Shown here in pieces: positions 2,532 through 19,048 of a stretch of DNA of 30,311 bases. A model generated the notes under the pieces. The model saw only the letters and a program-made list of their open reading frames with translations. It was not told where the DNA came from and did not search any database. Position numbers and translations under genes: made by a program. How positions within the stretch are numbered: position 1 is the first letter of the stretch; every line of letters starts with the position of its first letter. The stretch is from a virus, in the IMG/VR virus record IMGVR_UViG_3300006793_000158, positions 1 through 30,311 of that record. One strand, written 5' to 3'.

Positions 2532-3515
2532 TTATTTCTCCTTATTTTTATTGTTTTTAATTTTAATTTTATTTAAACCAGCATTGACACCTTCCCTAAT
2601 AGCATCAGCAACAGTGTAAATTTTTTCTGTTTGCTTTGCTCTTAGTTTATTAATACTATCAACTGCTTTCATTAAATTCTCTTTTTCTTCTTTTGTAAAA
2701 GTTACTGCATTAACACTTCTGTTTTCTTCACCATACCCATCAGGATTTTCTTCTTCTCCTTCTTCATCATCTCCTTCTTCTTCAGATGGATTCATAATTT
2801 CATCATATTCTTCATGTGTAGAACATGGCATATAAATTGTGTTTCCATCTTCGTCCATACTGTGAGTACCTTCACAACCAATTTCTTCAGCTCTTTCCAT
2901 TGCTTCTTCTTCAGTTGTGAATTGGTCAGTTTCAGGAAGTGGTGCTTTAGCTTCATCTTCTTGCACTTCTGCTTCAGGATATAATTCTTTTGCAATCTCG
3001 TCTGCAACTGGATTTAACCCTTTGCTTCGCATTGTTACCAATGAATCTCTATTGCTTGGAATTGTAACTTGTGAAATTTCAAGAAGTTCAACGTCTGTAT
3101 AAGTACGTTTTGCATTATCTTCACCATTGCCTTCCTGGTAGTCATAAGCCATGAATCCAACTGAATATGCAGATTTACCTTGTTTTGCTAACTCATATCC
3201 CCAATCAGCTTCAGCATTGCCTTTGTCAATGTAGTATTTAGCCACACCTTCAAGACCCTTGTCTGTTACTTCTAGTGATACCCATTCACCTAACTGTTTA
3301 GTTAAGTCATTATAGTCATGTGATGAAATTAGCACTGGGTGTTTCATAAAATCATCTATGGTTTTACGCCAGGCTGATGAAAGTATTACTTCCCCATCTC
3401 TGTCCACTGCTTCAGTTGACACAATAGCTTTGATATAACCATCTTGGTCATCAACTGCTTTTGTTTCTGCTCTGTAACTTTTGAAAATCTTTTTTACTTC
3501 ATTTTCAGAAGCCAT
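2532..3515 (-). CDS. HK97-type prohead protease with acidic C-terminal scaffold-like extension
   Basis: The 327-aa protein starts at ATG 3515 with SD AAGGAG. Residues ~15-160 match the S78 prohead protease pattern: a strand with EAVDRDGEVI, catalytic His66 in ISSHDY and catalytic Ser118 in SAYSVGF. It would process the capsid assembly during maturation. The remaining ~150 residues are atypical. They hold a Cys-containing stretch (CEGTHSMDEDGNTIYMPC), a run of Asp/Glu around residues 245-262, then a basic Lys/Asn-rich tail (IKIKNNKNKEK). This suggests a fused scaffolding function, which fits the absence of a separate scaffold gene nearby. The protease call is firm; the scaffold role is inferred. 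Confidence 0.9.
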   Translation of the reverse strand: MASENEVKKIFKSYRAETKAVDDQDGYIKAIVSTEAVDRDGEVILSSAWRKTIDDFMKHPVLISSHDYNDLTKQLGEWVSLEVTDKGLEGVAKYYIDKGNAEADWGYELAKQGKSAYSVGFMAYDYQEGNGEDNAKRTYTDVELLEISQVTIPSNRDSLVTMRSKGLNPVADEIAKELYPEAEVQEDEAKAPLPETDQFTTEEEAMERAEEIGCEGTHSMDEDGNTIYMPCSTHEEYDEIMNPSEEEGDDEEGEEENPDGYGEENRSVNAVTFTKEEKENLMKAVDSINKLRAKQTEKIYTVADAIREGVNAGLNKIKIKNNKNKEK

Positions 3516-3556
3516 GTGTACTCCTTATTTGTTAAAGTTTTAGACCTTTTTTACAC

Positions 3557-3583
3557 AAAAAAAGACCCTTATACAAGCTGGTC
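3557..3583 (-). terminator. Intrinsic terminator candidate between portal and protease genes
   Basis: On the minus strand a bulged stem (GACC 3583-3580 with GGTC 3567-3564, inner CTT/AAG, loop GTAT) is followed directly by seven T (3563-3557). The stem is short, but a run of seven U after a GC closing helix is a normal intrinsic terminator layout. It would end the short transcript started by the promoter at 3662-3691 and may attenuate read-through from the portal gene. Confidence 0.5.
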
Positions 3584-3655
3584 ACTTATAAAAAACGATC
3601 TCTTAGGATTCACATTATTGGCATTGGTGTCATGCACTCTAGCCATATTTAATTT
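3557..3655 (-). ncRNA. Candidate small RNA (~99 nt) between portal and protease genes
   Basis: A promoter with both consensus hexamers ends at 3662, predicting a start near 3655. The terminator above ends near 3557. The predicted RNA is noticeably less AT-rich in its middle (3590-3645) than other intergenic DNA here. It contains a 25-codon ATG frame (3646 down to 3569) with no SD, whose stop falls in the terminator hairpin loop. A non-coding regulator, a leader/attenuator for the protease-capsid operon and a microprotein mRNA are all possible. The elements are visible in sequence; the RNA is inferred. Confidence 0.45.
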
Positions 3656-3661
3656 GTAAAA

Positions 3662-3691
3662 ATTATAAACTATTTATTTTGTAGTTGTCAA
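3662..3691 (-). promoter_or_regulatory. Sigma70-type promoter with consensus -35 and -10
   Basis: On the minus strand TTGACA (3691-3686) is separated by 18 bases from TATAAT (3667-3662). It overlaps the last codons of the portal gene and points towards protease and capsid genes. This is the best match to the bacterial housekeeping consensus I found in the window. Confidence 0.7.
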
Positions 3692-5950
3692 ACTTTTATC
3701 ATTAAATTTAATTTCTTTTTTACATCTACTGCAATATAAACTAACAGTTCCAAGTAGTTTTTTAGCAAGTAATTTATCACAATCATGACATCTTGCTTCC
3801 TGTAGTGGATATTGATAATCAGATTCTTTTGTTTCTATATTTTCTGATTGTCCATCACCAAGTTGATTAACATAATATGTATGTGGGTCATTAATTTGAA
3901 CACCAGCATCAACAAATTCTTGAAGCATATCAACATCAATTTCTTCTAGCATAGTGCATCTGCAATTAACATTGTTTGCTGGGTCACCACCTAAAGCTGG
4001 TGCATCTAACAATTCGCCACCTACATTAAATGGTTCTTGCACTGGAACTCTTTGCCCATCAGCAAATGAATGGTCATCTCTAGTTTCATTATCTTGCGTT
4101 GTCAACCACACTTTGTTTGTTACCACTTCAGATTGTTTAGATGATTCAAGCACTGCATGGTTTAAAGCTGAAGCAGTTTCAGTTCTTGCTACTTTTGTGG
4201 CATAAGATTTGTTAAATGGATAAACTGCATCATCTCCAAATGATTGATTTATTTGCGTTGCCAGTCCATCAACACCAACACCTTCTATATCTCTTGATGC
4301 AATTATCAAATCCCTGACTTCTTTTGCTTGTGTCCCAATAAGAAGTTTAGATTTAGACAACGCATTTTGTCTAATAAAATTAACAACTGCATCTGATTCA
4401 GAATCAAAGTCATAACTGTATGGTGTTGTTTGTTTAACTGACCTGGTAAGTAATCTGTTTGCCCTTCTCATTATTTCTTCTTGTGTATCTTTACCAGCTT
4501 TGGCAATAGACTTTTTGTAGAAAGCAGTCAATGATTCTTCCATTACTTCAAGCCACTTCATTTCATTAAACGGATTTTTCTTAGGGTCATCTTTTAAATT
4601 AGCAACAATTTCTTTCTTTTGCTTGGCATATATTTTTTCAAATTCATTTTCAAGTTGATTTTGAAAGTTATCATACTTATCAAGAAATGACTTTGCCCTG
4701 TAGCTTTTGTATTCTGTTGTAAAGTCATTCATTTCTTTTAACGCTTTCTGTCTTGTAACTGCTTCAGGTACAGATGCTAGTGGCATCATAAAGACATCAC
4801 CATTTCTAACTGATTCAAGTCCAACCAGTGTTCTTGCTTCATTCCTGGTAATGTAACCTGATTTAAAACCTGTATCTGCCACTGATAAATTACGCTGGAC
4901 ATCTTCAGGCACTGGTGAGTCATAATCAAAATATAAATTTTCACCAAACATAGGAATAAACTGTTCATTTAGTTTTGCCCTTATCCTGTGCAATCTTGGT
5001 TTTAATACCCATCTTGCAAATGTGTATTCACTTGCTTCAGCGTTTGCCCTGTTTACAGATTCACTTATTCCAAGTATATGCAGTGGCATACCATAAGCAC
5101 CAAGAATGACATCACGATTCATTAACCTTAAATCTTTAAACTGCATATCCCTTTGGTTTACAGTTTTGCCTTGCCAGGTAGCACCACCTTCAAGTATTGC
5201 CACCTTATGACTTCTTGAAACCCCTTGATGTTGTTCATTCCATTGATATCTCAAGCGTTCATATTGTGAATCAGTAAGTGTGCCTTCAAAGTTTATAACA
5301 CCTGAAGGTTCAGCACTGTTTTGAAAGAATGATTTGTTATATTGACTACTAAATTTTTCAGCTTCAATATCTGACATGATAGAAGCAATGGGTGACTGAC
5401 CCCTGTAAGGATTATTAGGATTAGGAAGTTTAATGTGTATAACTTCATCTGTTTCTAATGGAATCTTCTCATGTCCATTTACATATACATATCCAGCAAT
5501 ATAATCTTTTGAATGTGGCACAACTTTTATTTTACTTGGATTTATTGCCCACAATTCTGCTGGACGTCCAATCCTATCTTTTATAACAAGCCAAAACGCT
5601 TCACCAACCAGGTCAACATATGTCTGTGTCTGTTCCATCATTTCAAGTCCAGTAGTATATTCATTAACAAAATCAAATAATTTTAATACTGGGTGATTTA
5701 TAATTTCTTCTTTCTCTTTATTAGTTTCATTTACTTGGTATAATCTCCAATTAGTTTCTGCAACTGCACTAGATATTCTTGATACACAAGCAAACACCCA
5801 CCCTACCTGACCATAAGCAGATATGTAATCACTAGGTGTAACGTTTGATAACGTGCCACCTATTGTGTAATTTTGAAACATTGAATTGTCCAAGCTAGGT
5901 GCTTTTTCTTCTGTCTTTAAAAATGGATTTATTTTGTTATACCATGCCAT
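3674..5950 (-). CDS. Portal protein fused to a MuF-type head morphogenesis domain and a Com-like zinc ribbon
   Basis: At 758 aa this is far longer than a typical 400-450-aa HK97-type portal. Residues ~1-400 are the portal (YGQVGWVFACVSRISSAVAE, GRPAELWAINPSKIKVV, MNRDVILGAYGMPLHILG). Residues ~400-550 are a charged helical linker. Residues ~555-665 match the MuF head morphogenesis domain (VARTETASALNHAVLESS, DDHSFADGQRVPV, ending NVNCRCTML). The last ~40 residues form a zinc ribbon with Cys721/724 and Cys740/743 (RCHDCDKLLAKK, CSRCKKEIKFN) that resembles Mu Com. The portal forms the DNA entry ring. The start has SD AAGGAG, 10 bases after the terminase stop. Confidence 0.95.
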   Translation of the reverse strand: MAWYNKINPFLKTEEKAPSLDNSMFQNYTIGGTLSNVTPSDYISAYGQVGWVFACVSRISSAVAETNWRLYQVNETNKEKEEIINHPVLKLFDFVNEYTTGLEMMEQTQTYVDLVGEAFWLVIKDRIGRPAELWAINPSKIKVVPHSKDYIAGYVYVNGHEKIPLETDEVIHIKLPNPNNPYRGQSPIASIMSDIEAEKFSSQYNKSFFQNSAEPSGVINFEGTLTDSQYERLRYQWNEQHQGVSRSHKVAILEGGATWQGKTVNQRDMQFKDLRLMNRDVILGAYGMPLHILGISESVNRANAEASEYTFARWVLKPRLHRIRAKLNEQFIPMFGENLYFDYDSPVPEDVQRNLSVADTGFKSGYITRNEARTLVGLESVRNGDVFMMPLASVPEAVTRQKALKEMNDFTTEYKSYRAKSFLDKYDNFQNQLENEFEKIYAKQKKEIVANLKDDPKKNPFNEMKWLEVMEESLTAFYKKSIAKAGKDTQEEIMRRANRLLTRSVKQTTPYSYDFDSESDAVVNFIRQNALSKSKLLIGTQAKEVRDLIIASRDIEGVGVDGLATQINQSFGDDAVYPFNKSYATKVARTETASALNHAVLESSKQSEVVTNKVWLTTQDNETRDDHSFADGQRVPVQEPFNVGGELLDAPALGGDPANNVNCRCTMLEEIDVDMLQEFVDAGVQINDPHTYYVNQLGDGQSENIETKESDYQYPLQEARCHDCDKLLAKKLLGTVSLYCSRCKKEIKFNDKSLTTTK

Positions 5951-10353: not shown

Positions 10354-11631
10354 TTAAAATAATCCCATTTGCTTGGTTCTTTCAAGACACATATCAAGAT
10401 ATTCTGCTTTAACATCTATACCTATTGCCTTCCTACCTAATTCTTGTGCTACCATTAACGTTGTTCCTGACCCAGCAAATGGGTCTAATACAACATCACC
10501 TTCCCTTGTACCAGCTTTGATACAATTCATTGGTAACTCTTTTGGAAACACTGCAAAATGTGAACCCTTGTATGATGCAGTGCCAATACTCCATACACTT
10601 CTCTTATTCCTAAATGGATATGTTTTGCCTGTTATATTTGGGTCAACATTGTATTCTCTAAGTGTAGTCTTTTTATACTCTTCTGAATTTGGATTTCTTT
10701 CTCTTCTACCTATAAAACTTTCTGCATCAACACTAGGCTCTTTTATAGCATCAGCATCATAATAATATTTAGATGACTTACTTAACAAGAATATATACTC
10801 ATGTGATTTAGTACACCTATCCTTAACTGATTCAGGCATTGGAGCTGGTTTGTGCCATATTATATCTTGCCTTAAATACCAACCATCTTCTTGCAATGCA
10901 AACGCAACTTTCCAGGGTATGCCCATCAAGTCTTTTGGTTTATATCCATCATCTTGCCTTTTAAACTTATCCCTAAATGATTCATTTACACCACCAGCAT
11001 TACTGCTATTCTGACTTGCCACTGTTTGCTTGTAACCATTTCCATTGGACCCAGCATAGCTATCACCTAAGTTTAACCACAATGTCCCATCTTTAACCAA
11101 AACTCTTTTAATCTCTTTAAATACATCTACTAAATTTTTTACAAACTCTTGTGGTGTTGATTCTAAACCCAATTGATTATCTTTCCTTACTGCATGACAA
11201 TGTGGACAAACATGACCATTTTTAATTGCTTCGTCACCAAAACTACCTGTGTTATTTAATTGCATTTCTGTTAATCCACCCCTTGTTGACCTACCTACTT
11301 CATGCTTACAATTTATGTCATTACCTCCTATCCATTCTGCCATTTTCTCAGCACCACAACTGGGACAAGCATTATAAAAATCCACACCCATTCCTTTGTT
11401 CATACTGTCTTGAAGATAGCCAACTCCACGCTTTGCAAACTTTGATTTGTGGTCACAGTTTTCATCACCACCCATCCAGGTATCACTACCATAATCCCTT
11501 AAAGCATAATATGGAGGCGAAGTTACAACGCAATTAATTGATTCGTCAGGTAACGTTTTTAATACATTAATATTATACCCTTTGTATAAAGTTACCTGAT
11601 TGCTCTTACTATATAAATATTTGTTGTCCAT
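10354..11631 (-). CDS. DNA methyltransferase, beta class (N4-cytosine or N6-adenine), with Cys-rich insertion
   Basis: The 425-aa protein has catalytic motif IV TSPPYYALRDYG near residues 37-48 and the AdoMet-binding motif DPFAGSGTTLMVAQELG near 383-399. The order IV-to-I defines the beta class. Between them lie pairs of Cys/His (CDHKSKF, CPSCGAEK, CKHEVG, CPHCHAVRKD, residues ~60-155) that look like zinc-binding treble or ribbon elements within the insertion. It transfers methyl groups to phage DNA, most likely protecting it from host restriction. No matching restriction enzyme gene is seen. N4 versus N6 cannot be decided from TSPPY alone. Confidence 0.93.
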   Translation of the reverse strand: MDNKYLYSKSNQVTLYKGYNINVLKTLPDESINCVVTSPPYYALRDYGSDTWMGGDENCDHKSKFAKRGVGYLQDSMNKGMGVDFYNACPSCGAEKMAEWIGGNDINCKHEVGRSTRGGLTEMQLNNTGSFGDEAIKNGHVCPHCHAVRKDNQLGLESTPQEFVKNLVDVFKEIKRVLVKDGTLWLNLGDSYAGSNGNGYKQTVASQNSSNAGGVNESFRDKFKRQDDGYKPKDLMGIPWKVAFALQEDGWYLRQDIIWHKPAPMPESVKDRCTKSHEYIFLLSKSSKYYYDADAIKEPSVDAESFIGRRERNPNSEEYKKTTLREYNVDPNITGKTYPFRNKRSVWSIGTASYKGSHFAVFPKELPMNCIKAGTREGDVVLDPFAGSGTTLMVAQELGRKAIGIDVKAEYLDMCLERTKQMGLF

Positions 11632-17060: not shown

Positions 17061-17342
17061 TTAGTTTTGTCTAATAAAATCCCTAGTTTGCTTTGGAAGT
17101 TTCATAAAGCAATCCCTACACACTTTCCATTTTTTTGGATAGTTAGCAATTCTGCTATATGCTTTACCACACCTTGTGCAATGTGGTTTAACTTGTTTAG
17201 TGAAAGTAGGAAGATTATTATTTATCAAGATTTGTCTTACTCGTTCCCTTGATATATCATATTTCCTACCTATTTCAGCCATAGACATAGCTGGGTCAGT
17301 AAGTCTTTCAGATATTATTTTTGTTGGGTCAACTTTTTGCAT
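17061..17342 (-). CDS. Sigma-region-4-like HTH with C-terminal zinc ribbon, putative transcription regulator, 93 aa
   Basis: Residues ~18-42 (SMAEIGRKYDISRERVRQIL) reproduce the sigma70 region 4 helix-turn-helix, including the RERVRQI recognition helix that reads the -35 element. Cys55/Cys58 and Cys75/Cys78 form a zinc ribbon, followed by a basic helical end. The start is ATG 17342 (MQKVDPTKII), with AGGA 7 bases upstream. A longer frame from TTG 17390 would put the -35 and -10 of the gene's own promoter inside its coding region. It is too small to be a whole sigma factor. It may redirect or block host RNA polymerase, or act as a simple DNA-binding regulator. Confidence 0.85.
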   Translation of the reverse strand: MQKVDPTKIISERLTDPAMSMAEIGRKYDISRERVRQILINNNLPTFTKQVKPHCTRCGKAYSRIANYPKKWKVCRDCFMKLPKQTRDFIRQN

Positions 17343-17361
17343 AAACATTTCCTGTTCAAGT

Positions 17362-17390
17362 ATTTTAAAACTATTGTTTACAGATGTCAA
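17362..17390 (-). promoter_or_regulatory. Sigma70-type promoter for the HTH/zinc-ribbon gene
   Basis: On the minus strand TTGACA (17390-17385), 17 bases, then TAAAAT (17367-17362). The start would fall about 13 bases before ATG 17342, leaving just room for the AGGA SD. This promoter drives a very short leader typical of an early phage gene. Confidence 0.7.
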
Positions 17391-17492: not shown

Positions 17493-17561
17493 ATGGACAG
17501 AATCCATTATAACCAAAATAATATAATTCCCCCTGATGCTTTTAGTTTGGTCCTGGTATAA
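17493..17561 (+). CDS. 22-codon leader frame before the resolvase gene
   Basis: ATG 17493 is preceded by AGGGGGACAACAAGT, the same SD leader type used by several minus-strand genes here. The frame encodes 22 residues (begins MDRIHYNQNNIIPP, ends AFSLVLV) and stops 4 bases before the resolvase ATG, which has no SD. Ribosomes ending here could restart at the resolvase. The alternative is a spurious short frame. Confidence 0.4.
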   Translation: MDRIHYNQNNIIPPDAFSLVLV

Positions 17562-17565
17562 ATTT

Positions 17566-18015
17566 ATGAAAAGAAATTTAAAATTTTTTACTGGTAACTA
17601 TATTAATTTTTCAACTGATTTACCACCTTCACAAATTCGTGGAAATCATAGGTCACATTTTAGAACTTTTAGAAAGTATTACAAAAATTATCAAGAACAA
17701 GGTATTGTTGCTTTGCATAATGCTTTGTTAAAAACAACGTTTGAATTACCATTTAAAAAAGCAATTATTGTTAATACTTTTTACAACAATAGATTGTTAG
17801 ATTTAGACAATTTTGGATATGGCATGAAATGTATTCAAGATGTGCTGGTATTACAAAATGTTTTAATTGATGATGATGCGTTAAGCATTACACCTATTAA
17901 TAGGTTTCGTAAATGCACTAAAAATGAACGTAGAGTAGATGTAATGGTATTTGATACCACTAATTACAAAAGCGTGTCTATTGTGGCTGGTTCTGATTTT
18001 CTTTTAACGCTTTAA
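17566..18015 (+). CDS. rusA: RusA-type Holliday junction resolvase
   Basis: This is the only clear plus-strand gene. The 149-aa product has the RusA signature: Asp79 and Asp81 in LLDLDNFGYGMKCIQDVLV, Lys88, Asp92 and the acidic cluster IDDDALS at 101-107, matching the catalytic carboxylates of RusA. It would cut branched DNA from replication or recombination before packaging. The start is ATG 17566 (MKRNLKFFTG); a frame from 17536 has no SD either. Translation may be coupled to the leader frame ending 4 bases earlier. Its 3' end overlaps the convergent gene at 17978-18015. Confidence 0.85.
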   Translation: MKRNLKFFTGNYINFSTDLPPSQIRGNHRSHFRTFRKYYKNYQEQGIVALHNALLKTTFELPFKKAIIVNTFYNNRLLDLDNFGYGMKCIQDVLVLQNVLIDDDALSITPINRFRKCTKNERRVDVMVFDTTNYKSVSIVAGSDFLLTL

Positions 18016-18594: not shown

Positions 18595-18767
18595 TATTCA
18601 TTCTCCAATACTTTTAGTGAAACACCACCAAGAAATCCAAAAATTCCACCTATAACGGCAGTAATGATTTCAGTTCCTTCCATCTTGTAACCAATCCATA
18701 TTGCAAAAAGACTAAATATAGTGGCACACAAGATTGCCAACGCTATTTGTGGTCTGAAATTACTCAT
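18594..18767 (-). CDS. Small two-span membrane protein, 57 aa
   Basis: ATG 18767 overlaps the holin-like stop (ATGA), and its stop overlaps the nuclease start by one base. Two hydrophobic segments are clear: IALAILCATIFSLFAIWIGY and IITAVIGGIFGFLGGVSL, with a charged turn KMEGTE. The second is glycine-rich, suited to helix packing. Size and topology suit a second holin, antiholin or pinholin. Function is inferred from topology and context. Confidence 0.75.
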   Translation of the reverse strand: MSNFRPQIALAILCATIFSLFAIWIGYKMEGTEIITAVIGGIFGFLGGVSLKVLENE

Positions 18768-19048
18768 TTATTACTCCCAAAAACACTGCCACTTAGGATA
18801 GCACCAAAACTTAAATGGAACAATCCCCCATTTTTCAAGGTGAACGGCTCATGTTGACTAACTAACTTCTTAAGGTATTCCATTTGCACTAAAGGGTCTT
18901 CTATGCTTTCTAAATGTGACATATAATCAGCCAAGTCCAAACCCATTCTAGCTATTCCATAGTAAATAGGAACTACCATAAAATCATATATACATATAAC
19001 TAAATAAACTATCAAAGCAGTCCATCTCCATCTATGTATGTTGTTCAT
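18764..19048 (-). CDS. Holin-like membrane protein, 94 aa
   Basis: The protein begins with a short basic segment (MNNIHRWRW) and a long hydrophobic span (TALIVYLVICIYDFMVVPIY). A polar middle follows, then a C-terminal hydrophobic stretch (GGLFHLSFGAILSGSVFG). The pairing of an N-terminal span ending PIYYG with a C-terminal GLFH...FGAILS resembles the holin family called 'holin of 3TMs, for gene-transfer release'. It would form lesions in the inner membrane at the end of infection. It overlaps its neighbours on both sides by 4 bases. The family assignment is from memory of pattern, not a search. Confidence 0.8.
   Translation of the reverse strand: MNNIHRWRWTALIVYLVICIYDFMVVPIYYGIARMGLDLADYMSHLESIEDPLVQMEYLKKLVSQHEPFTLKNGGLFHLSFGAILSGSVFGSNK

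Follow-up and report, generated by a model that had tools for sequence, protein, structure and literature searches.

A conserved structured RNA unit directly upstream of the prohead protease gene of uncultured phages, a candidate gate for head-gene expression

Most of what is known about RNA control of late (head) genes comes from lambdoid phages. The window analysed here is the whole 30-kb stretch of an IMG/VR virus record from an uncultured, probably marine phage, and the element under study (3557-3691) places a consensus promoter and a terminator-like hairpin between the portal and prohead protease genes. An earlier note on this DNA had seen there a candidate phage small RNA and, as an alternative, an attenuated leader of the protease and capsid genes. 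The location raises a simple question: is the predicted transcript a small RNA in its own right, or does the element control the head genes that follow it?

Anatomy of the element in the window

The window contains HK97-type head genes, and nearly all of its genes are carried by the minus strand. On that strand lie the terminase gene (7232-5961), a portal-MuF fusion gene (3674-5950; PHROG 2662, 1e-115), the HK97-type prohead protease gene (2532-3515, with its ATG at 3515; PHROG 80, 4e-23) and, next downstream of the protease, the HK97-type major capsid gene (1352-2530; TIGR01554, 5e-75). The protease gene also matched TIGR01543 at 1.6e-14 and 54.3 bits, slightly below the cut-off of 59. Reading along the minus strand, the end of the portal gene overlaps the promoter, after which come a 5′ hairpin, a linker, a two-tier hairpin, a U7 tract, the protease Shine-Dalgarno sequence (AAGGAG at 3521-3526, taken from the sequence, ~30 nt past the U tract) and the ATG.

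The promoter is of the sigma-70 type (TTGACA-18-TATAAT, 3662-3691, minus strand), with the −35 box at 3691-3686, the −10 box at 3667-3662 and an 18-nt spacer between them. Indeed, both hexamers are exact (12/12), just as the earlier note had read them at the end of the portal gene, and this is the only 12/12 match in the 30-kb window, for which a first-order Markov simulation gives an expectation of ~0.10. Judging from the spacing to the −10 box, transcription would start at ~3655 and, ending at the last U, would give a predicted non-coding RNA of ~99 nt (98-99 nt; 3557-3655, minus strand); the coordinates and the transcript length estimated previously were correct, as predicted from the promoter and U7 positions. 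No promoter was evident between the terminator and the protease ribosome-binding site (RBS), either in the promoter scan of the window or on inspection of the sequence.

The predicted RNA opens with a 5′ hairpin (3619-3645, minus strand), in which P1 (4 bp, 3645-3642 with 3622-3619), a 4x4 internal loop (UAGA/CAAU) and P2 (3 bp, 3637-3635 with 3629-3627) lead to a 5-nt loop. An unpaired linker follows (3602-3618, minus strand), with a conserved core (C)G(A/U)GAG in the alignments A10 and A11 described below and GUGAAU in the window. The remainder is a predicted two-tier terminator hairpin with U7 (3557-3601, minus strand): its base P3 pairs AGAUC with GGUCU (3601-3597 with 3567-3563), an internal loop comes next, and the upper stem P4 (7 pairs, 3590-3584 with 3578-3572) surrounds the ACC loop (GACCA, 3583-3579). 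The seven U reported earlier stand at 3563-3557, minus strand, and end 105 nt beyond the −10 box, but the structure before them is not the simple GC-closed stem that had been described. A simple terminator scan of the window missed this hairpin because it is two-tiered, and our own scan picked it up, with no other intergenic hairpin with a U tail on the window's coding strand. Its folding energy is −12.1 kcal/mol in the window and −11.9 to −33.4 kcal/mol in relatives. Past the terminator (3545-3563, minus strand), U7-GUGU-A6 can pair with the U tract as a second hairpin, in the AT-rich group only. Taken alone, this sequence does not fold significantly better than its shuffled versions (z −1.37, with 17/200 shuffles as good), and the case beyond chance therefore rests on the relatives.

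Conservation, fixed position and covariation

Relatives were found by protein searches with the protease, portal and capsid, and those with a readable pre-protease region gave seven distinct versions, namely the window (= L001), L005, L006, L010, L011, L168 and L170, most relatives being fragments. Across these versions, protease identity goes from 100 down to 50%, and all seven share the promoter, the 5′ hairpin, the linker and the two-tier terminator hairpin with its ACC(G) loop. The earlier note had made its proposal depend on promoter and hairpin being present in close relatives that share the gene order; both were looked for there and are present. The exact 18-nt spacer is kept in 7/7 AT-rich versions (promoter score of 12/12 in five, 11/12 in L168 and 10/12 in L170), and the −10 end lies 103-105 nt from the end of the U tract in 7/7. 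The spacer is constant in length and differs in sequence among the window group, L011, L168 and L170. In addition, other ORFs separate the portal gene from the promoter in L011 and L168, which lack the overlap, so that promoter conservation does not merely reflect portal coding sequence. When the window is compared with L011, L168 or L170, capsid four-fold degenerate sites are only 46-57% identical and the RNA is 70-76% identical. The 25-codon frame pointed out earlier does exist (3646-3569), but it is not conserved: its length varies among versions and its ATG is absent in L010, L011 and L170, and a coding leader peptide or leader-peptide attenuator was rejected for this lack of a start codon.

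The element directly precedes the protease gene in every version whose sequence includes both (window, L005, L006, L010, L011, L168, L170, and the further versions L392, L394 and L400 treated below). The upstream neighbour varies: the window has the end of the portal gene there, L011 an ORF in reverse orientation and L168 extra ORFs, and in L170 a strong hairpin-U7 terminator stands immediately before the −35 box. As a separate observation, the protease genes of L009, L010 and L011 have ~140 additional mid-gene codons relative to the window (alignment A4).

In A10, a plain sequence alignment of six versions, the structure described above has 94.6% paired cells, and double-sided changes occur in 5/19 pairs (shuffle mean 1.2, 0/500 shuffles; slid controls 0-2). 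P1 covaries (UGGC/GCCA, UCGU/ACGA, AAGC/GCUU), as does P2 (GUG/CAC to GUU/AAC). In the model-fitted alignment A11 (nine distinct rows), 13/19 pairs covary, with 22 cells versus 5.6, a figure that leans towards the model. A covariance model, R1, was built from the six A10 versions; the E-values of R1 and of a second model, R2, are rough because calibration was short. Without having seen them, R1 picked out L170 (E 4e-12) and, among capsid relatives, L392/L393 (E 3e-4), in each case directly before the protease, with an element of 49% G+C that retains in L392 the 5′ hairpin, the 4x4 internal loop and the CUAGA loop. The R1 match in L400/L421 was weak (E 0.78) and again directly before the protease (element 62% G+C); the L400 linker UCCGAGAGGCUUUAAGCCCGA matches UUCGAGAGUCUUUAAGACCGA of L170, and the terminator loop in L400/L421 retains ACCG. 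R2, which was trained on L392, L400 and L421 and whose scores for those three are not independent, matched L394 (element 68% G+C) with E 1.7 only, and by eye L394 displays TTGACA-19-TATGCT, CGAGAGGCCCGACC and an ACCG loop. The R1/R2 match in the window is at 3654-3545. The ACC(G) terminator loop is present in every version; termination requires neither it nor the CG(A/U)GAG linker, and yet both are conserved. Conservation together with covariation, as far as sequence comparison can tell, strongly support a discrete, structured, non-coding transcription unit of ~100 nt.

The element adds a structured RNA family absent from Rfam, since Rfam 15 gave no gathering-score match in the window, in the stretch around the element or in five relatives. 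The annotated phages tested gave no DNA match, and R2 found no member in the head regions of Streptomyces phage Dagobah, Bradyrhizobium phage ppBdUSDA122-1, Geobacillus phage GBK2, Desulfofustis phage LS06-2018-MD02, Roseobacter phage CRP-6, a Manatee Spring phage, Brevundimonas phage Polewnik and Microcystis phage Mae-JY09. A portal search of bacterial genomes for prophage copies gave no relative, and no free-standing copy was seen elsewhere in the genomes searched, the sole extra match (G002, E 0.67) being at chance level. Two sequence patterns were discarded: AGAGTGCNNGACACCA matched 98 viral-contig stretches as a chance pattern, with promoter and terminator only in the element's own family, and AGAGTN{4,9}ACCAN{42,72}GGTCTTTTTTT had many chance matches in viral and bacterial contigs, with a consensus promoter only in protease-linked versions among the matches listed. 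Since the scans of the whole collection relied on DNA or peptide patterns, they under-sample distant versions. A literature search, under the terms tried, did not find such an element described, and the element, probably a control gate for head-making, appears to be previously undescribed.

Small RNA or gate for the head genes

The anatomy, conservation, covariation and fixed pre-protease place of the element have to be explained together. The predicted terminator is co-directional with the protease gene and upstream of its RBS, and must be passed by polymerase coming from this or any promoter further up; read-through is therefore needed whatever the short RNA does, and for this reason we favour a late-gene gate before the protease and capsid genes, similar to lambda pR′/tR′ or to put, over a trans-acting small RNA. 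We put the chance that such a gate is the right reading at about even; that the unit is transcribed and terminated, that read-through is regulated and which factor might take part are inferences. In this scheme, host sigma-70 RNA polymerase would start just downstream of 3691-3662 and make a ~99-nt folded RNA ending at the U7 terminator. Head-gene mRNA would be made once polymerase passes the terminator, at a low level through leakage and fully upon an antitermination event later in infection. The 5′ hairpin, the CGAGAG linker and the ACCG loop would be the likely recognition site, and the recogniser could be polymerase itself, as for put, or a phage or host factor. The RNA is conserved and the sequence of the promoter spacer is not, which makes recognition through the RNA, as for put, likelier than recognition through promoter DNA, as for Q. 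A conserved RNA gate in uncultured, apparently marine phages and their G+C-rich relatives would offer a testable handle on late switching outside enteric models.

The terminated-leader reading is favoured by the fixed protease side, the changing other side, the terminator facing into protease and capsid, and the additional terminator of L170, which stands directly before the promoter, so that the head genes there probably depend on this promoter. Thus, of the two possibilities raised in the earlier note, covariation supports the ~100-nt unit itself, but these facts favour the leader alternative, and we favour the small RNA as a product or by-product of a terminated leader controlling the head genes. 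An alternative antiterminator pairing conserved across versions was looked for by eye and not found, which argues against a classical two-state attenuator; together with the lack of a recognised N- or Q-like protein in the window, this counts against the gate, and the strong sequence conservation in the loops would suit a trans-acting RNA as well. Two capsid relatives with 42% identity display a comparable layout: L450 has TTGACA-17-TATAGT, a short leader and a strong two-tier terminator abutting the protease RBS (L450:880-1014), and in L448 a leader and a terminator of the same strong two-tier kind likewise abut the protease RBS (L448:3940-4076), both relatives being unrelated to the element in sequence here. 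That the layout recurs with different sequence suggests a use for the layout itself.

The most serious competitor, which we hold possible and clearly less probable than the gate, is a trans-acting phage sRNA, whose ~99-nt transcript would pair with host or phage mRNAs or bind a host protein via the ACCG loop and the CGAGAG linker, its place before the protease being simply inherited gene order. It would account for a complete unit with a consensus promoter, a constant 103-105 nt and a terminator with U7-8, as well as for conserved unpaired positions in loop and linker and the lack of a conserved reading frame. However, phage genes reshuffle, and under this reading the element would not be expected to stay tied so strictly to a single downstream gene across such a wide divergence; the terminator would block the head genes all the same, and no free-standing copy turned up in the genomes searched. 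Unlikely, in our judgement, is an autoregulated leader, in which the capsid, the protease or another late protein would bind the leader and tune read-through or translation of the head operon in the manner of ribosomal-protein leaders: a location immediately ahead of the protease and capsid RBS would suit it, as would conserved internal and hairpin loops, which we take as typical of protein sites, but the Shine-Dalgarno region lies outside the conserved structure and the ligand is only putative. Slightly less credible still would be an ordinary promoter with a leaky terminator that sets the head-gene dose, the RNA having no role of its own. This would explain the position, and the arrangement recurs in L448 and L450 although their sequence is unrelated; yet it accounts neither for covariation in the 5′ hairpin nor for the persistence of the linker and terminator-loop sequences across a G+C range of 28% to 62%. 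As for a structural RNA of the particle, e.g., a packaging RNA like phi29 pRNA, its position among the head genes would fit, but no resemblance to phi29 pRNA was seen beyond position, phi29 pRNA belongs to another type of packaging motor, and HK97-type motors are not known to require an RNA, which makes this reading highly improbable.

Known systems, candidate regulator and neighbouring features

The lambda pR′/tR′ module precedes the lysis genes, whereas the element sits inside the head operon. Both nevertheless place a promoter, a short transcript and a terminator before late genes, whose expression needs read-through in lambda and phage 21 with Q (PMC6606751), and by its sequence anatomy the element, like the lambda module, has a predicted terminator that separates the late promoter from the late genes. 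The DNA site of Q lies between −35 and −10 (PMC6606751), whereas in the element this spacer sequence is not conserved while the RNA is. The phage proteins gave no match to the Q family, and protein family searches recognised no N- or Q-like protein in the window. The put RNA alone renders polymerase terminator-resistant through the beta′ zinc-binding domain. In HK022, putL and putR are promoter-proximal phage RNAs of ~70 nt with two stem-loops (PMC9378689), and the element is likened to them by description, not by sequence, for its two stem-loops, promoter-proximal place and putative RNA-level control of termination. In contrast, put acts on early operons with terminators further downstream, and the second hairpin of the element is the terminator itself. 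The B. subtilis rplJL leader (PMC4538822; ribosomal protein attenuators) is also structured and also ends in a terminator shortly before the first gene, but no antiterminator pairing conserved across versions was seen by eye in the element. Finally, the phage sRNAs OOP, aQ, DicF, IsrK and StxS (PMC12197685) are likewise short transcripts, some with terminator-like ends; many RNAs in that review are antisense or prophage RNAs, and none of capsid, structural genes and lytic phage turned up when it was searched for them.

A protein of 109 aa that combines sigma-70 region 4 with a zinc ribbon (17061-17390, minus strand; Pfam Sigma70_r4, 1e-6) has 46% identical homologues in the RNA-carrying, near-complete L168 and L170 phages, and our guess is that it is a candidate phage transcription regulator and candidate partner of the RNA. 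Rather doubtfully, the element may even stand for a new class of phage RNA antitermination, in which the nascent 5′ hairpin and CGAGAG linker, with or without this protein, would switch polymerase through the terminator and so turn on the head genes; if true, the class would differ from both the put and the Q systems and would cover phages whose elements have a G+C content of 28 to about 65%. A RusA-like gene (17536-18015) lies near the sigma-4/zinc-ribbon gene on the opposite strand.

Several neighbouring features are recorded here as observations. The L168 phage (L501, L502) has two near-identical TTTACA-17-TATAAT promoter-like sequences at record positions 11256 and 23085 (minus strand), which, with their shared spacer motif, perhaps represent a phage promoter class. 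Just upstream of the element in L400 (766-837), and the same in L421, there is a tRNA-like cloverleaf with a CAU anticodon (Rfam tRNA, 42.7 bits), which ARAGORN missed and which possibly shares one transcript with the element. In L392, a long inverted repeat CAGGGCGGGATgctaATCTCGCCCTG (3930-3990) lies between the −35 box and the RNA and overlaps the −10 region, and the L392 terminator also contains CAGGGCG. A small membrane-like protein is common to the window (18764-19048, minus strand) and to L392 (3646-3927, plus strand), where it stands directly upstream of the element.
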